Below, in pieces: positions 5,733-32,904 of a stretch of 64,000 nucleotides of DNA. The position numbers and the translations under genes are program-made. Within the stretch, counting starts at the first letter, position 1. The number at the start of each line of letters is the position of its first letter. Source of the DNA: Candidatus Methylacidiphilum fumarolicum (GTDB taxonomy: Bacteria > Verrucomicrobiota > Verrucomicrobiia > Methylacidiphilales > Methylacidiphilaceae); NCBI RefSeq assembly GCF_949774925.1, contig NZ_OX458932.1:2356001-2420000 (forward strand). The letters are read 5' to 3'. The notes below the pieces were generated by a model that saw only the letters and a program-made list of their open reading frames with translations, did no database searches and was not told where the DNA came from.

Positions 5733-6212
5733 ATTGGATCTTCCTTATAGGTAAAATTTATCAATGATCTAGCTTAAAAAAAGACAAACCTATATAGTGG
5801 CTTTTGCTATCTATTCAGTCAAAAAATCCTCTTTAAAAACTAATTAGACGTTGGCATCCAAGCAATCGCTACTTTTCTCTTTCCTTCTAAGCGATTCTCC
5901 TAGAAGTTTTTGTGTGATCCCCCCCCTCCATCATGTTAAACTTTACACTACTCGGCCCCTTTGGAACTTAAAAGCTTTACCTTTGGCTTGATAAGCCCGT
6001 TGCTTCCTGAATAAAAACAATGACAAATCCCTACTGCTTCTTCCTGCATTGAGTCAGAGCTACTTAGCCAACCGCAATGCAACTTTCTGTCAGCCTCAAT
6101 GTGGATGCGAAAGGACTTTTTTAATGAATATTTTTTATTCATCAAATTATATAAGAAAAAAAACAAACGTGTATCTTGCCACTTTCGAAAAGATACCTAG
6201 AATTAACACAAC
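5733..6212. other. Gene-free divergent promoter region between trpA and gltB
   Basis: This 480-base gap separates the divergent trpA and gltB. It holds short open frames with no recognisable product (one of 72 codons on the minus strand at 5948-6166). A short AT-rich inverted repeat near 6124-6142 has TGAATA facing TATTCA. Promoters for both flanking genes are expected here, but no convincing -35/-10 pair could be fixed by eye. Confidence 0.4.
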
Positions 6213-16347: not shown

Positions 16348-17505
16348 ATGAATTTGAAACGCAATGAACTTGTCAAGATTTTGCATCAGAACTGGCTAAA
16401 TGAAAAGAAAACGGCAAGAGCCTATAGAGATATTGCAGAGATAGAAAAAAATCCCCACAAAAAAGAAATTCTCTTAAAACTCGCTGAAACTGAAGAAAAA
16501 CATGCTCTTAAATGGGAGCAAGAACTCAAAACATTGGGCCAAAGTTGCGAAGAAACGGATTCAAAATTCAAAAGAATTATTGAAAAGTGGTTAAATCAAA
16601 ATCTGGGTATCTGGAATGTAGTGAGAAGAATGGAAAATGCCGAAGCAAAAGATGAACTGAGATATTTGAAACAAAAAGAATTGTTTAAAGGATCGGCTAA
16701 GCTAGAACAGACACTTGCAGAATTAGCAAAAGATGAAAAGGATCATGTCTCCATTTTACATAATCTCATCAAAAAGAGTCCTGCCCCAGAAAACAAGATA
16801 GACACCATTTTGACTAGAGAAAAATGGCATGGTAAAGGGGGGAACTGGATAACCGACTCCATTTATGGCATCAATGACGGATTAGGAGCTGTTTTCGGAA
16901 TAGTTTCTGGTGTAGCTGGAGCTACAGAAAACCAAACCCATTACATACTCATATCTGGGCTTGCTGGAATGATTGCCTCATCTTTGTCTATGGGGGCTGG
17001 AGCTTATCTAGCTGCCAAAAGCCAGAAGGAAGTATATGAAGCGGAGATTGCTAGGGAAAAAAGAGAAATTGAAGAAAATCCGCAAGAAGAAATAGAAGAA
17101 ATGGCGCTTTTTTATCAACTACAAGGCTTTAACGAAGAAGAGTCAAAATGGATCGCAGAAAAGCTGTATCAAAAGCCAGAACACTTTCTTTCGGCGATGG
17201 TTAGCTCTGAGCTTGGTCTTTCGCAAGCTACCTTTCCAAAGCCCTGGAATGCCTGTCTATCGGCCGCTATTTCGACGGTTCTTGGCGCTTTTATCCCTTT
17301 GGTTCCTTTTTTCTTTCTATCAGGAATGTACGCCATTTCCTTTTCTTTTTTTATAAGCCTAGTAGCCCACTTTCTTGTCGGCGCCGCAAAAACTCTTGTT
17401 ACAGCAAGAAATTGGTTCTTTAGTGGTCTAGAAATGACAGTAGTGGGTGTAATCGAAGCAGTTGTCACTTATTCTCTTGGACTTCTTTTCCGACTTCCTT
17501 CCTAG
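16348..17505 (+). CDS. mbfA: MbfA-type iron exporter: rubrerythrin-like diiron domain fused to a VIT1/CCC1 membrane domain
   Basis: The N-terminal about 150 residues form a ferritin-like four-helix domain with two ExxH motifs (EEKH near 49-52 and DEKDH near 131-135) plus paired Glu on the preceding helices, as in erythrin domains. The C-terminal half, from GINDGLGAVFGIVSGVAGA, is the VIT1/CCC1 iron/manganese transporter domain with about five membrane segments and an EEIEEM loop. MbfA proteins in other bacteria export iron and protect against peroxide. The 3' end of this gene has a decayed copy about 6.18 kb downstream (23545-23690). Confidence 0.85.
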   Translation: MNLKRNELVKILHQNWLNEKKTARAYRDIAEIEKNPHKKEILLKLAETEEKHALKWEQELKTLGQSCEETDSKFKRIIEKWLNQNLGIWNVVRRMENAEAKDELRYLKQKELFKGSAKLEQTLAELAKDEKDHVSILHNLIKKSPAPENKIDTILTREKWHGKGGNWITDSIYGINDGLGAVFGIVSGVAGATENQTHYILISGLAGMIASSLSMGAGAYLAAKSQKEVYEAEIAREKREIEENPQEEIEEMALFYQLQGFNEEESKWIAEKLYQKPEHFLSAMVSSELGLSQATFPKPWNACLSAAISTVLGAFIPLVPFFFLSGMYAISFSFFISLVAHFLVGAAKTLVTARNWFFSGLEMTVVGVIEAVVTYSLGLLFRLPS

Positions 17506-17610
17506 TGGTTAGAAAGCCTTAATTTTCAGCTATATTCAAAAAGGGTTCAATAGTTTGATAAGAAATAACTAGTCTATTTTTGCATAAAAAAGAGAAACAA
17601 ATCCACAATG
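17340..17610. repeat. Left copy of a duplicated mbfA/hyhG junction
   Basis: The last about 165 bases of mbfA and the following about 100 bases match 23545-23790 with scattered substitutions and small indels. A 17-base stretch (TTCAATAGTTTGATAAG) at 17546-17562 is identical at 23724-23740. In this copy mbfA is intact, while the sequence beyond it is a broken minus-strand copy of the end of hyhG. Confidence 0.85.
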
Positions 17611-17620
17611 CCTTCCCTTA
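17520..17620 (-). pseudogene. Decayed 3' fragment of a second HyhG gene
   Basis: On the minus strand this segment resembles the last about 30 codons of the hyhG-like gene at 23697-24560: the coding sequence for the C-terminal [11 protein letters not shown] region is recognisable at the DNA level, then similarity fades beyond about 17620, with only short matches such as AAATAAATG near 17690. The frame is interrupted. It is the remnant half of the duplicated junction. Confidence 0.65.
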
Positions 17621-17879
17621 TTACTTTTTTCCCTTATTTTGCTTCCATCCTTCTTTAAAAAGCCAATCGGATACATTATTTTTAAATAAATGACAGGGCA
17701 GATCGTATTCTCGTTCTTCATTTGTCCTAATCGTAAGAGAGTATCCCCTCAACCTTTTTTCTAAATGGCATTCCACAAAACATAATTTAAAAAAGAAAAT
17801 TAGCTTTCCATGGAGAGTTCTATCGATCTTTTTGCCAGGATTCTTTTATCCACAACTGGTAACTTACCCAATGAGAAGA
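17621..17879. other. Remaining gene-free sequence after mbfA
   Basis: Together with the hyhG remnant this makes a 374-base gap between mbfA and the next, convergent gene. It is AT-rich. I see no gene, RNA or clear terminator beyond the duplicated segment. Confidence 0.4.
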
Positions 17880-18611
17880 TCATCTATTGTTCTTGCTCTT
17901 TTTCTTTTCTAACAGGCAACTGACTATGAGAGACCAGACAATATAACAACACATTGCAAAGGGAAGCTGCAAAGCCAAAGGCATCGCAAAAAGAAACGTA
18001 GTAGCGGGGACCCAAATGATCCAATTAGAAAGAAGCAACGAAGTTCCTTCTTTCGTATATATCAATGGATTCCAACACTTCCAAAATGGGAAAAACTGGT
18101 ATCTAGCTTCTTTCCACTTGAAAAGAGCCATAATAAAAGGAAGCCAAAAGAAAGGAGTATAAAGGAAATTGTCTACAAAAACCTTGCAGATAATCCCATG
18201 AAATGAAGGTTCTTCACCAAAAAGCAAGCTAACAGCTTTAAAGACATAATTTGAAAAGAAAATACTTAATCCAAAAATAAAAGCCTTGTAAACCGAGGAC
18301 TCAAGATGGTCATACCGGACTTTGCCTTTATCCCAGATTATCACATGTAACAATACTGCTAATGGTCCGCAGCAGATCGCATTCACACTGACTGTAAACC
18401 AAATCCCTTTTTCTCTGTTTAAACGTTCTAAATTCTCCAGTAATTCCTTAACTTTCCACCCCTGATAATAACCAATCGTAAGAAATGCAACAAAGACGCC
18501 AATAATTAACGCTGGTAGAAGATTTTCTTTAAAGACCTCTTTAATTTCCCCTTTCTTCTGAGAACACCAATCTGAAAGAAAAGAATGAGTGTTTCCCTTA
18601 CTGAAGGCCAT
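17880..18611 (-). CDS. Polytopic membrane protein of unknown function
   Basis: The open frame reaches 18845, but its first 78 codons are antisense-free shadow over the end of the aldehyde dehydrogenase. The ATG at 18611 (MAFSKGNTHSF) gives 243 residues and starts 19 bases after the dehydrogenase stop. Four to six membrane helices are visible (for example LLPALIIGVFVAFLTIGYY and IIWVPATTFLFAMPL), with a basic C-terminus KKKSKNNR. The arrangement is reminiscent of Mpv17/PMP22-type proteins (a WxP..Q-like end is loosely matched), but I cannot assign it firmly. Confidence 0.6.
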   Translation of the reverse strand: MAFSKGNTHSFLSDWCSQKKGEIKEVFKENLLPALIIGVFVAFLTIGYYQGWKVKELLENLERLNREKGIWFTVSVNAICCGPLAVLLHVIIWDKGKVRYDHLESSVYKAFIFGLSIFFSNYVFKAVSLLFGEEPSFHGIICKVFVDNFLYTPFFWLPFIMALFKWKEARYQFFPFWKCWNPLIYTKEGTSLLLSNWIIWVPATTFLFAMPLALQLPFAMCCYIVWSLIVSCLLEKKKSKNNR

Positions 18612-18630
18612 ATCCACTAAGATTTTTCGC

Positions 18631-20127
18631 TTAAAGCTGCACGCAGACTGATTTTGTTTGGAGATAATTTTCCAAAACTTCATGTCCCATTTCTCTACCC
18701 CAGCCTGATTGTTTGTACCCTCCAAAAGGAAGAGCTGGATCATCAACATTATAGCAGTTGATCCACACTGTCCCCGCTTTGATTTTTGCAGCAAGCCGAT
18801 GAGCCTTGGAAATGTCCTTTGTCCATATCCCTGCAGCCAAGCCATAAATAGTCTCGTTAGCCATTTTAATCAAATCTTCTTCCTTTTCAGAATCAAAAGG
18901 TACTGCGCAGACAACTGGACCAAAAATCTCTTCTTGATAAACTTTCATTTGCGCATGGACATTAGTCAGCAGAGTCGGAGCAAAAAAATAGCCTTTTTCT
19001 CCAACTCTAACTCCTCCACAGCCTACATTCGCTCCTTGGCGAATGCCCGACTGCACATATGAAGATACCCTTTGGAGCTGTTGGGCAGAGATTAAAGGAC
19101 CAATCTGACTGTTAGGATCAAATCCAGGACCTACCCTTAGCTCCTTGGCCTGTTGGGTTATGGCTTTTGTAAATTCCTCATAGATTTTCTTTTCAATGAA
19201 AAGTCGGCTCCCAGCACAACAGTTTTGACCACTGTTTATAAAAGCCGCATTTGCCGCTTCGCCAATCGCTTTATCCAATTCTGCATCGGCAAAGACTATG
19301 TTGGGGGATTTGCCTCCAAGCTCTAAGGTTAGTTTTTTTAAGTTCCCAACCGCTGCTCTAACGATGCTTTTGCCTACTTCTGTAGAGCCCGTAAAGGCCA
19401 CCTTATCAATGCCGCAATGGTTGGCAATTGCCGCCCCAGCAGTTTCACCAAATCCAGGAAGAATGTTCACAACTCCTTCTGGAAATCCCGCTTCCACAAT
19501 CAACTCTCCAAGCCTAAGGGCCGTAAGGGGTGTTTGTTCTGCTGGCTTAAGAATTATCGTACAGCCCGTTGCCAAAGCTGGAGCCAGCTTCCAGGTGGCC
19601 ATGAGAAGGGGATAATTCCATGGAATGATTTGTCCCACTACACCAATGGGTTCTTTTAAGATATAGGCTAAATAACGATATGGACTAGCCAAAGAAAAAG
19701 GGATGGTGTTCCCTTCAATCTTCGTAGCCCAGCCAGCCATATAGCGGAACAATTCAATCGAAGCGGGAACATCCGAGCTTTGGGCTGCACGAAGAGGCTT
19801 GCCGTTGTCTAAGGATTCAATCTGAGCAAGCTCTTCGGCATGCTTTTCCATCAGGTCGGCAAGCTTCATCATGAGCTTAGAACGCTCGGCTGGAGACATC
19901 CTTGACCATGCCCCATGTTCATAAGCCTGTCTAGCAGCATCGACAGCACGGTCCACGTCTTCTTTTCTTGCCTCATAAATTAAAGCAAGAGGTTGTTCAG
20001 TTGCTGGATCATATGACGGAAATGTATTTCCAGATAATGATTCCACCCATTTGCCATCAATCAACATTTTTTTTGGAGAAGCTGTCAAAAATGATTCGAC
20101 TTCAGGCAATACTTTTCTATCATTCAT
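18631..20127 (-). CDS. NAD(P)-dependent aldehyde dehydrogenase
   Basis: The 498-residue protein is a complete ALDH-superfamily enzyme. It has IIPWNYPLLMATWKLAPALA with the oxyanion Asn, KPAEQTPLTAL for cofactor binding, FTGSTEVG, the general base Glu in LELGGKSP near residue 268, and the nucleophile in GQNCCAGSR near residue 302. The C-terminal PFGGYKQSGWGREMG is also typical. It most resembles the broad-specificity betaine/retinal-type group; the physiological aldehyde is not readable. It probably shares a transcript with the membrane protein downstream. Confidence 0.93.
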   Translation of the reverse strand: MNDRKVLPEVESFLTASPKKMLIDGKWVESLSGNTFPSYDPATEQPLALIYEARKEDVDRAVDAARQAYEHGAWSRMSPAERSKLMMKLADLMEKHAEELAQIESLDNGKPLRAAQSSDVPASIELFRYMAGWATKIEGNTIPFSLASPYRYLAYILKEPIGVVGQIIPWNYPLLMATWKLAPALATGCTIILKPAEQTPLTALRLGELIVEAGFPEGVVNILPGFGETAGAAIANHCGIDKVAFTGSTEVGKSIVRAAVGNLKKLTLELGGKSPNIVFADAELDKAIGEAANAAFINSGQNCCAGSRLFIEKKIYEEFTKAITQQAKELRVGPGFDPNSQIGPLISAQQLQRVSSYVQSGIRQGANVGCGGVRVGEKGYFFAPTLLTNVHAQMKVYQEEIFGPVVCAVPFDSEKEEDLIKMANETIYGLAAGIWTKDISKAHRLAAKIKAGTVWINCYNVDDPALPFGGYKQSGWGREMGHEVLENYLQTKSVCVQL

Positions 20128-20153
20128 TTTTACCTCCAGATCGTTTATTTATA

Positions 20154-20999
20154 TTATAATATCTCGTTTATTTTTAGTATAACCTCATTGGCCTTCTTGT
20201 AGTTACTGAGTAATAGTTTCCCTTGTTTATCTATACGGTCGTGATGATGAATAATATAAGGATCGATTTCATCAGGATTATAATAAGGATGTATTGGATA
20301 TGCTGTTTGGAAATTCATCGAGATAGGCAAAGGTTCTATAGGTATTTTTGTTTTTTGAAGCATAAGAGAAAAAGCTATTTCATCTGTATAATAAGATTGC
20401 TTTTCAATCGTTTTAAGTTTTGGATATACTCTAATTAAATCATTAATACAGTTAGCCCATTCTTTTCTTATAATGTCAACATATATTTTAGGAATAATCA
20501 TAACACCAACATTATAATGCGGATATGTTAATTTATCGTGTGATTCCGTATTATATGTTTTTGATGGCATTTCTAAATTAAAATATTTAAACAACTGCAT
20601 ATAGTCTTCTAAAGAAAAAAGAGAAAGATAATCATGATAATCTATTTTTGCAAGAACATGACTCGATGATATATATGATGAAAAATCTCTCGCTATCACT
20701 ATATCATTGTCTAAAACAATAAGATAGTCATATTTTTTTTGTATTTCGAATATTCTCAGATTATTTGTGTGTGGGTATTGGGTATTAAACGGTTTGATTA
20801 TCTCAACTTCTACGTCCATTTCTTGAAATGCTTTTTGATATTCAGGTCGAATCGAATTAACAAAACAAACCACTGCTGCGGATTTCGCAAGGCATCCGCC
20901 AAAACGCCGTAAGCTTTTAAAAAGTATTTTACATTTTATATAATGCTCCTCGTTATTTTCCGCAACGCAAGCTATTAACACATTTGTATTTGTTTTCAT
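20154..20999 (-). CDS. GT-A-fold glycosyltransferase-like protein
   Basis: The 281-residue soluble protein has a nucleotide-sugar-transferase pattern: an early beta strand NVLIACVAEN, then YDYLIVLDNDIVIARDF with a DxD-type metal-binding motif around residue 97, and later HYNVGVMIIPK and IIHHHDR. The last resembles the C-terminal His motif of GT8/glycogenin-like enzymes. It is AT-rich compared with the neighbouring dehydrogenase. It lies 1 base after the aminotransferase gene, so the two form one transcription unit, probably for a surface sugar. Confidence 0.65.
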   Translation of the reverse strand: MKTNTNVLIACVAENNEEHYIKCKILFKSLRRFGGCLAKSAAVVCFVNSIRPEYQKAFQEMDVEVEIIKPFNTQYPHTNNLRIFEIQKKYDYLIVLDNDIVIARDFSSYISSSHVLAKIDYHDYLSLFSLEDYMQLFKYFNLEMPSKTYNTESHDKLTYPHYNVGVMIIPKIYVDIIRKEWANCINDLIRVYPKLKTIEKQSYYTDEIAFSLMLQKTKIPIEPLPISMNFQTAYPIHPYYNPDEIDPYIIHHHDRIDKQGKLLLSNYKKANEVILKINEIL

Positions 21000-21000
21000 T

Positions 21001-22086
21001 TTATCCTCTTAAAGCATTAATCACAATTTCACTGATTAAATCTACCGTCGACACTGAAAGGTTATTATACATTGGCAGGCAGAGAATTCTTTCTGCTATA
21101 TACTCACTTACTGGGCAAAATGTTCTTTTTTTCAAAAAGGAAAGCTGATTAAGAGAAGGATAAAAATAACGTTTAGGAAATATCCCCATTTTTTGGCATT
21201 GAGATACTGTCCATTCCAAAACATCTTTTTCAGGAAATATTACTGGATAATAGGAATAATTATATTGAGTTCCTTCTGCAATCTTCTGTTTTTTAATCGG
21301 TAATCCTTCTAGATTTTTATCATACCTCTCAGAGATTCTTTTCCTTTCATTTATAATGTCTTTTACATGAAACAGATTGCATAATCCCATCGCTGCGTGT
21401 AATTCTGAGTTTTTTGCGTTTATTCCTAAACCACAAATCGCATATTCATCGGCAAAGCCAAAATTCCTCATCATGCGCAGTTTTCTTTCAATTTCTTTCG
21501 ACCTCACAACCAATGCTCCCCCTTCAACAGTATGAAATAATTTTGTAGCATGAAAACTAATAGTAGCGATGTCGCCATAAGCAAATATAGACCTATTATC
21601 ATAATAAGTACCGAAAGCTTGAGCTCCATCATAAATGATTTTTAATCTATATTTTTTCCCAATCTCTTCTATTTTCTGCACATCACATGGATTACCAAAT
21701 ATATGAGGAACCAGAATAGCGCTAGTTCTGTCTGTAATCGCTTCTTCGATTAAGGAAGTATTGATGTTTAATGTATCAGAAAAAATATCAACCATTTGTG
21801 GCTCACATCCTTCCCATAAAATAGCTGACGTCGTAGCGATAAAACTAAAAGGAGAAGTAATAACTTCTCCTTTTATGTTTAAAATCTTAAGTGCAAGTTG
21901 TAAGGCGATTGTTCCATTGGAAACATATACAATATAATCTAAATTAAGATATTCTTTCAATCTCGCCTCAAATTCTCTTACCATTGGTCCATTGTTGGTC
22001 AACCATTCTTTCTCCCATATAAGCTTTAGATAAGATAAATAGCGCTCTAAGGGTGGTAAAAAAGGTTTACTCACTGTAATATTCAT
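21001..22086 (-). CDS. DegT/DnrJ/EryC1-family sugar aminotransferase
   Basis: This PLP enzyme family transfers an amino group to nucleotide-activated keto-sugars. Visible are WLTNNGPMVREFEARL, VSNGTIALQLALKIL, YDGAQAFG with the PLP-contacting Asp, and SFHATKLFHTVEGGALV with the Schiff-base Lys near residue 184. The ATG at 22086 is chosen over an in-frame GTG three codons upstream. The gene is AT-rich (roughly one-third GC) like its glycosyltransferase partner, suggesting joint transfer from elsewhere. The exact sugar is unknown. Confidence 0.88.
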   Translation of the reverse strand: MNITVSKPFLPPLERYLSYLKLIWEKEWLTNNGPMVREFEARLKEYLNLDYIVYVSNGTIALQLALKILNIKGEVITSPFSFIATTSAILWEGCEPQMVDIFSDTLNINTSLIEEAITDRTSAILVPHIFGNPCDVQKIEEIGKKYRLKIIYDGAQAFGTYYDNRSIFAYGDIATISFHATKLFHTVEGGALVVRSKEIERKLRMMRNFGFADEYAICGLGINAKNSELHAAMGLCNLFHVKDIINERKRISERYDKNLEGLPIKKQKIAEGTQYNYSYYPVIFPEKDVLEWTVSQCQKMGIFPKRYFYPSLNQLSFLKKRTFCPVSEYIAERILCLPMYNNLSVSTVDLISEIVINALRG

Positions 22087-23544
22087 ATGTATCACGTTAT
22101 TAAAAATGTAGTTAGTTCTTTTTTATGAAAAAAATAAAAAATACATTAAAAATCTTTTATACTTTATAGCTATATGTAATAATATTTTACATATATGTTA
22201 AAATAATTTACACACATATCGTTTTTACAATATATTATGACCTATTCTATTGATAGTAACATAGAATACTAAAAAAGGTTATCATACAGCTAAAACTATG
22301 AATATTTTTTAATAATTTATTAATGTGATATTCATAATCATATTTCTTCCTAGATTGCTTAATGGAAATTTCGATGTAAGAAATCAAATGATGGCAAATT
22401 GAATTTTGGGGGAACAACATTATAGTGCCTATTTGAAAAAAAACGGAATGGCGGAGAGTTGGATCAAAGATAAAAAATTAAAAGAGAGGGTAGAATTTAG
22501 AGCCATATATCTGTAGTACTGACTAGTTAGTCTTGAAGAAAGAGAAGACAAAAAACATGGAACAGTCAGAAAAGAATTGGTACTTTATTATTGCGACCGA
22601 AGCTAGATCACGGTGGCTAGTCTCCACGCTACTATTACACAGGAGCCTTCCCTAGCGCTGATACATGATGCACTTGGGAAACTCCACATGCTTTGTATCC
22701 CCAGTATTCCCATTTGGGCTCATGAGACAATGGTTGCATATAATACTCCGACTGGACCTGCCACGCTTCTCCCCAGTAATGCATACGATGTGGTCTTTTT
22801 GTGACTTATATTGTAAGCTAATAAGTATCCTTGCCCTTTCCCCGCCAGCTCATGCGCTGGCTGTGGTAAGGCATGTATGACTTCTTCTCATCACCCTCTG
22901 GGTTACCGAAAAAACGACTGTATGTCCCTTCTTTACAATGTTCGATGATGTGCCATCTCCTCTTGTTGCACAAGCCACACAGATGACGCTCGTGACGCAG
23001 CATGAGCTTGGCTCTGATCCCTCCAATTACCACCACCATTACAGGAAATTATGTATGTATAGCGGATTTCCCGGCCCCTCCCCCAACCTTATAGGTCCTT
23101 TGGGTCAATGAGGAGGGAATCTATAAACTTGTCTATCTTTTTGTCTCTTTCGCAAAGCGAATATTTCTTCAAAGAGATTATCCATTTTTGATTTAGGAAC
23201 AGCAATTAGAATCCGATGATTCCTACATTTAAAAACAACTGGATCTGAAAGCTTTTGAATAGGAATGAAAACTTTCCGCTCTTTTCTATAGTGAAAGTAA
23301 ACTAGCTAATTCTCAAAAGTTTTAATCACGTTAGCATACCTTATAAGCCACTTATTCCAACCCATTGACAAAATATCTTGCTGTTATAGTCCTTTATCAA
23401 AGGTTTGCTTCTGATATGGACATAGATTTTAATTCAACATTCTTTCAAAACCACTACCGATTTAAATATTATATCAAAAATAAAACAACAGAGCTTTGGT
23501 TAGAGCAGAGGGGAAAAACTGTAAGACCTTTTTTTATTCACAGC
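22087..23544. other. Long gene-free, decayed region
   Basis: About 1.5 kb hold no intact gene. 22100-22400 is very AT-rich and would contain the promoter of the aminotransferase operon. 22560-23100 is clearly richer in GC and has short frames on both strands (plus 22613-22804, minus 22818-23039) with no firm family match; it looks like old mobile-element DNA. 23109-23288 on the minus strand is an open stretch without a start codon (about 58 codons, KVFIPIQKLSDPVVFK...), also unrecognised. Confidence 0.4.
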
Positions 23545-23690
23545 CTTTTAAGCCTAGTACTCACTTTTTGTAGGCGTTGCATAAAGTTTGTTCTTTAGTG
23601 GTATAGAGAGGAAAGTAGTGTGGGTGTATGTGTGATCGAAGCAGCTGCCACTTATTCTTTTGGACTTTTTTTCCAATTTCCTCCATAGTG
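23545..23690 (+). pseudogene. Decayed 3' fragment of mbfA
   Basis: This stretch aligns with the last about 150 bases of mbfA (17355-17505), including ATCGAAGCAG.TG.CACTTATTCT and the final TAGTG after the stop, but with indels that break the frame. No upstream part of mbfA is recognisable. It forms the right-hand copy of the duplicated mbfA/hyhG junction, directly before the intact hyhG-like gene. Confidence 0.75.
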
Positions 23691-23790
23691 ATTGGTTTAA
23701 ATTTCGGCTATATGCAAAAACGGTTCAATAGTTTGATAAGAAAAAACCGGTCCATTTTTGCATAAAAACAGAGGGCCAAATTGACAATGT
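23545..23790. repeat. Right copy of the duplicated mbfA/hyhG junction
   Basis: Counterpart of 17340-17610, offset by about 6.18 kb in the same orientation. In this copy the hyhG-like side is intact and the mbfA side has decayed, the reverse of the left copy. Confidence 0.85.
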
Positions 23791-24560
23791 CCACAAGACC
23801 CAATAGCACATTGCATATTTCTTTCCATTGAAAAATAAATGTTCTCCTTAGCTATTCCATATTTTAAGAGGGTATAAGCACAAAAACGCATCATTGGCTC
23901 AGGACCGCACACAAAAACTATGGTGGAAGGAGGGCTGAATTGTGCATGAGAAATAAGATTAAGTACATTGCCAATATGACCGTTCCAGGTTCTAGCTGTT
24001 GCCAGTTCCACTGCAATTTTTACCGAAATATCTTTTCCATTAGAAAGAGTCTCTAGTTTATCCTTATAAAGGATGTCCTGTGGGGTCCTTACTCCATACA
24101 AAAGAGAAATCCTTCCATAACAAGATCGATTTTGAACAAAAAAAGGAATTGTTGACCAAAGAGGAGGAAGACCAATTCCTCCAGCGATAAGAAGGATATC
24201 CTTGGTCGATGCTTCTTGGATTGGCCAGCCATTGCCAAAAGGGCCACGAACGCCTAATATATCCCCTTCTTTTGCATGCTCAATTACTCGAGTAACACTG
24301 CCAACAGAACGGACCGTCAAAAGATATTTTTCTTGATCTCCTCCATTATCTGCAATCGAAAGAGCCACCTCGCCCACCCCAAAAACATAGACCATTAAAA
24401 ATTGTCCAGGATTAAAAGTGCATTCGTTTTTTTCTAGTGGTGCAATCCAAAGACTAACAATTCGAGTACATTCAACAACCTTCTTTTCGATTATGAAAGC
24501 CTTAGGAAGAAGAATAGAATCAGTAGGTTCGACAACAGATTGGCATTCCTTTGCTTTCAT
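23697..24560 (-). CDS. HyhG-like FAD/NAD(P)-binding oxidoreductase subunit (NifJ-linked paralogue)
   Basis: The 287-residue protein has the ferredoxin-reductase layout of sulfhydrogenase gamma / anaerobic sulfite reductase B subunits. The FAD site is around [23 protein letters not shown], the NAD(P) site around [12 protein letters not shown], and a C-terminal [2Fe-2S] site at [17 protein letters not shown] has four Cys. It is clearly homologous to the hydrogenase HyhG at 32059-32904 (shared SMERNM.CAIG.CGHCQ). It overlaps its HyhB-like partner by 4 bases and ends the nifJ operon. No hydrogenase genes lie downstream, so it should serve as an NAD(P)H-ferredoxin module. Confidence 0.88.
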
Positions 24561-30447: not shown

Positions 30448-31596
30448 ATGGATAGATTTGGCTCAAATAAGTTTAAAATCACCAAAAGAGAACTTCAATC
30501 CATCCTCGATGCTCTCAAAAGAAAAGGCTTCAAAACCATTGGCCCAACAGTTTCAAAAGATGCTATTGTCTATGACGAGATAGACTCTTTGAACGATCTT
30601 CCCATAGGTATAGGAGATGAACAGGAAGCAGGAAGCTATCGACTAAAAAAAAGAACAGATGCTACTCTTTTTGGTTTTGCATCTTCTCCCCATAGCTGGA
30701 AACAGTTCTTGTTCCCTGCCCAAGAGAAAATATTTTCCATCCATCAGCCCACCGAAAAAACGTCGCCCCCTTTGATTGATCCATCAGTTAGGCAACATCC
30801 TCCACTTGCTTTCATTGGAGTCAGGTCTTGTGATCTGCAGGCTATTGCTATACAGAACCGTGTTTTTTTGGAAGGTCCCTACCCTCATGCCGGTTATAAA
30901 TCCAGAGCCAAAGCTCTATTTATTCTTGCTGTTAATTGTGCTTATCCTTCTGCCACTTGCTTCTGTTCTTCAATGGGGACAGGACCAAGAGCTAAAAGTG
31001 GTTTTGATCTTCTTGTAACCGAAATTTTAAACGGTCAAAAAGAACATTTCTTTTTAATCGAAGCTGGTAGTTCTCAGGGAGAAGAAATCATTGCGCAAAT
31101 CGAAAAGACCGATGCTACCGAAGAAGACTTAAAAAAAGAGAATGAAGTGATTCAACATGCTGAAAAACAGATATTTCGTCGCATTGAAACCCAAGGAATT
31201 AAAGAACTGCTTTATAACAACTTGCAACACCCTCGATGGGAAGAAATAGCACAAAGGTGTCTTTCCTGTGCCAACTGCACTTTTGTTTGTCCTACCTGCT
31301 TTTGTTCCACTCTTATTGATATTCCAAAAAAGGCACAAGAAATAGAAAGATGGATGGTATGGGATTCCTGCTTTACTCTGAATTTCACGCATACTCCAGC
31401 TGGAAGTGTAAGAAAAAGCGTTTTATCTCGCTACCGACAATGGATGACTCATAAACTAGCTTCATGGATAGATCAATTTGGGACATCCGGTTGCGTAGGC
31501 TGTGGCCGTTGCATCACCTGGTGTCCTGTTGGCATAGATATCACGGAGGAAGCTGAAATTATTAGAAAAACGAGCCCCGTTAAGATGCCCTCTTAA
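30448..31596 (+). CDS. hyhB: Group 3b NiFe hydrogenase iron-sulfur (beta) subunit HyhB
   Basis: The 382-residue protein carries the two-cluster layout of sulfhydrogenase beta subunits: [14 protein letters not shown] and [14 protein letters not shown] near the C-terminus, and a mid-protein [10 protein letters not shown]. It relays electrons between the flavin subunit HyhG and the hydrogenase small subunit. The ATG at 30448 is used because an upstream ATG at 30441 runs into a stop after four codons. It is the first gene of the rightward hydrogenase operon and has a close paralogue in the nifJ operon. Confidence 0.93.
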
Positions 31597-32075: not shown

Positions 32076-32904
32076 TTCCCCAGAAAATCCATTCATTCCT
32101 AAACCTTTTGTCATCGAAGAAAAAAAGAGAGAATCCTCATCTATTTTTAGTCTTTATCTCAGGCCAATAGACTCATTACCCTTTTATTTTCTTCCTGGAC
32201 AATTCAACATGATTTCAGCTATTGGAGGAGGAGAAGCGGCTATTTCGATCGCCAGTGATCCAACTAATCCTCATATTCTTATTCATACGATTCGCATCGT
32301 AGGAAACGTGACGAAGGCATTAAGCAAACTTGAAAAAAATGATTTTGTACTGATTCGAGGGCCTTATGGTAGAGGTTGGCCAATAGATTTAGTCAAAAGG
32401 AAAACATTAATTCTCGTTGCTGGCGGAATCGGATTGCCTCCCCTTCTCCCAATCCTTTATATGGCTCAAAAAAACAAAGGATATTTTAAAAATCTGATTC
32501 TTCTCTATGGGGCTAGGACAAAAGATGATCTTCTTTTTATGCCTTTACTTCATAAACTGACAGCAGACCAAATAATCACCCTGCATGTTTCAGTGGACCG
32601 TCCTAGTCGTGAGTGGAAAGGTCATGTAGGAACAGTGACAGCCCTTATTCCTTCCATTAGTTTTGATAATAAAGAGACTTTCGTGTTCAGTTGTGGGCCT
32701 GAAATTATGATGCGATTTATGGCCAGAGCGTTCATTCAAAAACACCTCCCTAGAGAACATATCTTTTTTTCTATGGAAAGGAATATGAAATGCGCTATTG
32801 GAATTTGTGGACATTGCCAACTTTCCCCATTTTTTATATGCAAGGATGGCCCAGTTTTCCCCTATGAACAAATTGAGCACTTATTGACCGTTGAAGAATT
32901 ATAA
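32059..32904 (+). CDS. hyhG: Group 3b NiFe hydrogenase flavoprotein (gamma) subunit HyhG
   Basis: The 281-residue ferredoxin-reductase-type subunit contains FLPGQFNMISAIGGGEAAISIASDP for [15 protein letters not shown] for NAD(P), and CAIGICGHCQLSPFFIC for a [2Fe-2S] cluster. It exchanges electrons with NAD(P)H. The start overlaps the end of the cyclic-nucleotide-binding gene. A 328-base gap with a hairpin separates it from hyhS, an unusually long gap within this operon. Confidence 0.93.
   Translation: MDHLPDSPENPFIPKPFVIEEKKRESSSIFSLYLRPIDSLPFYFLPGQFNMISAIGGGEAAISIASDPTNPHILIHTIRIVGNVTKALSKLEKNDFVLIRGPYGRGWPIDLVKRKTLILVAGGIGLPPLLPILYMAQKNKGYFKNLILLYGARTKDDLLFMPLLHKLTADQIITLHVSVDRPSREWKGHVGTVTALIPSISFDNKETFVFSCGPEIMMRFMARAFIQKHLPREHIFFSMERNMKCAIGICGHCQLSPFFICKDGPVFPYEQIEHLLTVEEL

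Follow-up and report, generated by a model that had tools for sequence, protein, structure and literature searches.

The window analyzed here is a stretch of 64,000 nucleotides from Candidatus Methylacidiphilum fumarolicum (assembly GCF_949774925.1, contig NZ_OX458932.1, positions 2,356,001 to 2,420,000 of the forward strand), a genome referred to below as SolV. The subject is the junction between mbfA, which codes for a membrane-bound ferritin, and a convergent hyhG-like gene, which codes for an oxidoreductase subunit. The 3' end of mbfA and the last ~92 bases of the hyhG-like gene are present twice in direct orientation, and the two copies enclose an insert of ~5.9 kb. On the left side, mbfA is complete and hyhG is reduced to those ~92 bases; on the right side, hyhG is complete, whereas mbfA carries a frameshift and lacks its 5' part. 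This reciprocal pattern had been proposed in a first-pass annotation of the same DNA, and it is borne out by the open reading frames (ORFs), by Pfam matches, and by the two fragments themselves. The genomes compared were SolV, Kam1, Yel, V4, and G001, all of the genus Methylacidiphilum, together with G007 in the sister genus g2. The features of the locus are as follows, with strand given for genes and gene fragments.

16348-17505, plus strand: mbfA, intact, for a membrane-bound ferritin (ORF; Pfam Rubrerythrin and VIT1)
17349-17610: left copy of the duplicated mbfA/hyhG junction (repeat search, BLAST); homology to the right copy ends near 17610 in SolV, Kam1, and Yel
17519-17610, minus strand: hyhG', a decaying 3' fragment of ~92 bases, 85% identical to hyhG nucleotides 772-864 and diverging faster than intact hyhG
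17611-17879: left margin of the insert, non-coding, its first ~205 bases kept in Yel (genome comparison)
17880-18650, minus strand: membrane protein with a weak Mpv17/PMP22-like match (ORF; Pfam 9e-5, under the cut-off)
18631-20127, minus strand: aldehyde dehydrogenase (ALDH), with 69% amino acid identity to a separate chromosomal ALDH (ORF; Pfam)
20154-20999, minus strand: glycosyltransferase-like protein of 281 amino acids, so labeled in the first-pass annotation, no Pfam match (ORF)
21001-22095, minus strand: DegT/DnrJ-type aminotransferase (ORF; Pfam)
22096-23148: decayed DNA of ~1 kb common to Kam1, at 81% and then 71% (genome comparison)
23149-23534, minus strand: 5' remnant of an FkbM methyltransferase gene plus its upstream region; the gene is intact in Kam1 and Yel (genome comparison)
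23546-23789: right copy of the duplicated junction (repeat search, BLAST)
23546-23688, plus strand: mbfA', a frameshifted 3' fragment (nucleotide comparison, alignment)
23697-24560, minus strand: hyhG-like NAD/Fe-S oxidoreductase subunit, intact, with 93-94% nucleotide identity to Kam1 and Yel (ORF; Pfam)

A gene junction in two copies

The repeat unit measures ~262 bp on the left, where it occupies 17349-17610, and its right counterpart spans approximately 23546-23789, with 79-80% identity between them. It contains three ungapped, direct blocks at a spacing of 6175-6183, namely 17404-17450/23579-23625 (79%), 17447-17510/23630-23693 (84%), and 17519-17590/23697-23768 (89%). In a self-BLAST of the 64 kb window, the core of the repeat (17409-17610 versus 23584-23789) aligns at 79% with an E value of 1e-44, which is far beyond chance, and the remaining matches are two paralogue pairs. 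The left copy reaches 17349 when it is aligned to the right copy of Yel (80% over 264 bp). A search of the whole SolV genome with the junction repeat recovered two places only.

These measurements uphold the initial description of a direct repeat ~6.18 kb apart that shares at least ~250 bases with scattered changes. The exact 17-mer reported at 17546 and 23724 is present as well, within a 22-base exact match (17544-17565 / 23722-23743). The size of the insert had been given as 5.6 kb and is corrected here to ~5.9 kb.

The window also holds a second hyhG-like gene (32083-32898), which lies on the opposite strand and has 42% amino acid identity to the first. A paralogous partner gene is located at 30448-31596, and the two sets are oppositely oriented. 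No RNA families were found between 10 and 32 kb of the window.

The locus in related genomes

In G001, mbfA and hyhG are direct neighbors with 133 bp between them, and the site carries no insert. Kam1 and Yel have both copies of the junction with the same outer limits as SolV, around inserts that are differently eroded. In the left copies of these three genomes the similarity to hyhG ends at an identical point, and in the right copies the similarity to mbfA ends in a common stretch that adjoins the start of the FkbM methyltransferase gene. The SolV mbfA gene is 95-97% identical at the nucleotide level to those of Kam1 and Yel and 73-74% identical to those of G001 and V4; G001 itself is most similar to V4 (82% over the 3' end of mbfA). 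The duplication of the mbfA/hyhG junction is confirmed as real, is well supported by relatives, and is ordinary in kind.

V4 keeps the order and orientation of the two genes, with an unrelated 2.7 kb between them (L015:9221-11905) and no duplication. Just upstream of its mbfA is a resolvase/TnpB element resembling IS607. These two features indicate that the mbfA/hyhG junction was invaded independently in V4. In the sister genus, most genomes have relatives of both genes, which are far apart in the single-contig genome G007. From gene order we infer that mbfA-hyhG adjacency was the ancestral state of Methylacidiphilum, and the earlier proposal that the two genes were once direct neighbors is supported by the arrangement in G001.

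The V4 insertion shows that the site is permissive even where no duplication accompanies the incoming DNA, which is relevant to a two-step history. Such a history would begin with a short tandem duplication of the junction, after which foreign genes would enter the redundant spacer, where they do no harm. The first-pass annotation had set tandem duplication aside on the grounds that the insert is not a copy of neighboring genes. That observation is correct, but the dismissal came too quickly, as the same arrangement results if only ~260 bp are duplicated in tandem and DNA is inserted between the copies, either afterwards or at the same time. The topology is identical, and a redundant junction would offer a harmless landing site in a gene-dense genome. 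Even so, two rare events would have to coincide at one place, and would have to do so at each of the three loci discussed below. Moreover, the genomes and stretches examined included no relative that has the duplication but lacks the insert, in a scan that counted only repeats with spacers longer than 300 bases. We consider a two-step history unlikely.

Content and erosion of the insert

The insert is fullest in Kam1, where it comprises the Mpv17-like, ALDH, glycosyltransferase-like, and DegT aminotransferase genes, decayed DNA, a frameshifted glycosyltransferase-2 (GT2) gene, and an intact FkbM methyltransferase gene. SolV retains the first four of these genes and the 5' part of FkbM only. 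A deletion in SolV removed the remainder of FkbM and the GT2 gene, and it ends at a short repeated sequence, a microhomology that reads TTCTCAAAGC at both ends in Kam1 and TTCGCAAAGC at the SolV joint. Yel retains GT2, FkbM, and ~205 bases of the left margin, and its ALDH-to-DegT block is gone. Because the mbfA genes of SolV and Yel resemble each other (97% identity) more than either resembles that of Kam1 (95%), the simplest history is one larger ancestral insert followed by separate deletions. The first-pass list of insert genes (ALDH, membrane protein, glycosyltransferase, and aminotransferase) was right as far as it went, and it had passed over the FkbM remnant and the ~1 kb of decayed DNA.

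Among 289 genomes of the phylum, the 281-amino acid glycosyltransferase-like protein occurs in SolV and Kam1 only. Its lack of relatives beyond these two genomes implies that the insert is foreign, at least in part.

No transposase was recognized among the insert ORFs of the mbfA/hyhG locus. An insertion sequence (IS) element or composite transposon was rejected as the source of the duplication on these grounds, and also because such elements are expected to leave a short target duplication of 2-14 bp versus the ~262 bp seen here. Likewise, a scan of the insert ORFs of SolV, Kam1, and Yel, in which the decayed segments were not profiled exhaustively, found no integrase beside the repeat.

Age and lineage of the copies

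For mbfA, the three right-hand fragments are 83-88% identical to one another, 77-81% identical to the intact copies of the ingroup, and 56-61% identical to G001 and V4. In the junction tree these fragments form one clade with a bootstrap of 100, and they have small indels and deletions in common. For hyhG, the three left-hand fragments split from the intact genes with a support of 90. Both junction copies fall within the SolV/Kam1/Yel lineage, well away from G001 and V4. Because all fragments lie inside this lineage, a single event on its stem, before the three genomes split, is indicated. Very probably, therefore, the insertion entered the ancestor of SolV, Kam1, and Yel after its separation from G001 and V4, and decay and deletions followed.

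This placement also changes what can be said of the incoming DNA. The first-pass annotation had envisaged a circular molecule with a homologous junction that integrated by a single crossover. The topology of reciprocally truncated direct copies fits that proposal, but a foreign version of the junction is not supported, as both copies are of the host lineage. A foreign circle with a diverged junction was rejected, as stated, for the same reason.

Two further loci

A scan for insertions compared sampled stretches amounting to ~840 kb of SolV, 780 kb of Kam1, and 350 kb of Yel. Inserts that bear duplications were found at three loci only, alongside clean insertions without duplication (27 in SolV and 7 in Kam1). 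The clean SolV insertions are mostly multi-copy elements that lack a long duplication. One of the two additional loci came to light through an mbfA fragment in Yel contig C16. Their positions are as follows.

Yel C16:12042-13972 (L016:4043-5973): two direct copies of ~125-144 bp in this interval, around a 1.66 kb insert confined to Yel; the site is single-copy in SolV and Kam1
SolV C1:838601-838973 / 849668-850320: comF/accD junction duplication (scan)
Kam1 C1:690944-691458 / 696007-696676: comF/accD junction duplication (scan)

The Yel C16 duplication is about 137-146 bp long, and the insert carries a VapBC-like gene pair and a decayed 5' fragment of mbfA. The flanking copies are 94% identical to each other versus 89-91% to SolV and Kam1, which argues that they arose within Yel's own lineage. 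The mbfA fragment in this insert (L016:5487-5847, mbfA nucleotides 219-578) is 76-77% identical to the SolV, Kam1, and Yel genes and 70% identical to that of G001, and it is about as diverged as the mbfA' fragment of the main locus.

At the comF/accD junction the duplication exceeds 500 bp. The left copy has an intact accD and a 3' fragment of comF, the right copy has an intact comF and a 5' fragment of accD, and the two enclose genes for a TonB receptor and a TPR protein in both SolV and Kam1. The accD fragments of the two genomes group together with a support of 97. In G001 and V4, comF and accD are adjacent, with a spacing of 34-36 bp.

Thus, at each of the three loci the target is single-copy in a close relative that lacks the insert: G001 for mbfA/hyhG, G001 and V4 for comF/accD, and SolV and Kam1 for the Yel C16 site. 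Cargo is unrelated between the loci. The duplicated copies at all three group with the host lineage and so derive from the target itself. Because the copies lie inside the host lineage and those of Yel C16 are mutually closest, the duplicated DNA must have originated in the host lineage itself or in one very near to it.

Several other repeats were examined and set aside. The SolV repeat at C1:819431/821016 (819431-821494; 480 bp, 96%) belongs to an HNH-domain toxin cassette that is duplicated on either side of an SMI1-like gene, probably a polymorphic toxin module. The S1 113054 repeat pair recurs elsewhere and is mobile-element-like. Self-repeats of V4, G001, and Yel C5 were not established as insertion duplications.

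The diversity of targets bears on whether these structures could stem from an integrase-type island that has since decayed, one whose long attachment site restored the 3' end of its target gene. The attachment (att) sites of some prophages restore gene ends, as does the duplication here. An integrase was not recognized among the ORFs examined, however, and the three target sites are unrelated and differ in length. Furthermore, one of the targets is not a gene end alone but unites the 5' start of accD with the 3' part of comF. A decayed island of this type is very improbable, and a site-specific island or IS origin was rejected overall because no integrase or transposase was found among the insert ORFs examined and the duplication has the wrong length.

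Routes of insertion

The best explanation of the locus combines the insertion history outlined above with integration by a single crossover, and we give this combined account an even chance of being correct. The SolV structure has the hallmark of a Campbell-type integrant, in that the shared segment is present as a direct repeat and the genes beside it are reciprocally truncated. Incoming DNA would have carried or acquired a few hundred bases that match the junction and would have closed into a circle, possibly through Ku-type end joining. One RecA-dependent crossover would then have integrated the circle and placed the shared segment on both sides. Each neighbor retained one complete copy, and the redundant fragments have since decayed. 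The same process may account for the comF/accD locus of SolV and Kam1 and for the Yel-specific VapBC insert.

Experiments in Escherichia coli provide a precedent. When linearized plasmid DNA matched the chromosome at one end, it integrated mostly by recircularization and a single crossover, which duplicated 109-950 bp (PMC3240628). The present loci fall within this size range. Ku (PF02735) is encoded in Kam1 (C1:740600-741127), G001 (C1:2004488-2005006), and Yel (C27:4074-4598).

Several observations weigh against this account. Ku was not found in SolV and V4, and the insert ORFs examined included no recognizable plasmid, replication, or integrase gene. A single crossover demands a donor piece of exactly the right junction, three times at three loci, and the insert genes are not present at these sites in G001 or V4. 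In addition, the copies are too diverged for branch lengths over only 90-270 bases to reveal whether the two were already distinct at insertion.

An alternative route is capture at a staggered break: opposite strands are nicked a few hundred bases apart, fill-in synthesis makes both overhangs double-stranded, and end joining places free DNA in the gap. The segment between the nicks would end up on both sides, and the incoming DNA would need no homology. Consistent with this possibility are the host-lineage copies at all three loci, the different cargo at each, and the Ku genes of Kam1, Yel, and G001. Patch-mediated break repair that yields tandem duplications has been discussed for eukaryotes. 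Staggered-break capture would require overhangs of 137 to several hundred bases, however, and no experiment that demonstrates such capture in bacteria was encountered here. SolV, which bears two of the loci, has no Ku, yet both insertions predate SolV. We regard this route as doubtful, though deserving of serious consideration. A single crossover of a circular or recircularized molecule is the likeliest route, with a probability that we place somewhat below even.

The mbfA/hyhG locus is a dated case, documented in several genomes, of genes that entered a small bacterial genome with no transposase and left their neighbors unbroken. Three independent loci and the patchy distribution of Ku across the genus make the mechanism testable by comparison. 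It is conceivable, although we think it improbable, that Methylacidiphilum has a recurrent route, perhaps tied to Ku, that adds foreign DNA at gene junctions and duplicates 140 to several hundred bases without damage to the neighbors. The presence or loss of Ku would then set its rate.

Comparison with known systems

The mbfA/hyhG, comF/accD, and Yel C16 cases match "insertion with long target duplication," a pattern described in Helicobacter pylori by Nobusato, Uchiyama, Ohashi and Kobayashi (2000), with duplications on the order of 100 bp (cited in PMC1643837 and PMC3874152). As in H. pylori, a strain-specific insert lies between direct copies of a target segment of which a relative has just one, and no classical transposon is involved. 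The duplication is likewise long and variable, at least ~100 bp there and ~262 bp, 137-146 bp, and more than 500 bp here. The cargo differs. In H. pylori it is often a restriction-modification system, an association that is frequent but not required, whereas the Methylacidiphilum inserts hold surface-glycan and metabolic genes (ALDH, DegT, FkbM, and GT2), a TonB receptor and TPR gene, or a VapBC pair. The Methylacidiphilum cases also stand apart in that a gene junction is covered by two of the three duplications, whose copies are old and show evident decay.

Single-crossover integration of recircularized linear DNA in E. coli also produces a direct duplication of the homologous locus around an insert (PMC3240628). 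That case involved an engineered plasmid under selection, whereas at the Methylacidiphilum loci no plasmid sequence was recognized. Transposed genes in Arabidopsis provide another parallel, because moved genes lie between direct copies of a mostly genic target site and circular intermediates have been proposed (PMC2869330). Arabidopsis differs in being a eukaryote and in that donor sites are known for some of its genes (PMC2869330).

The present loci extend a pattern known from Helicobacter restriction-modification genes to other cargo and to the Verrucomicrobiota. What is new is that the pattern recurs within a single verrucomicrobial genus, at three loci whose cargo does not consist of restriction-modification genes.

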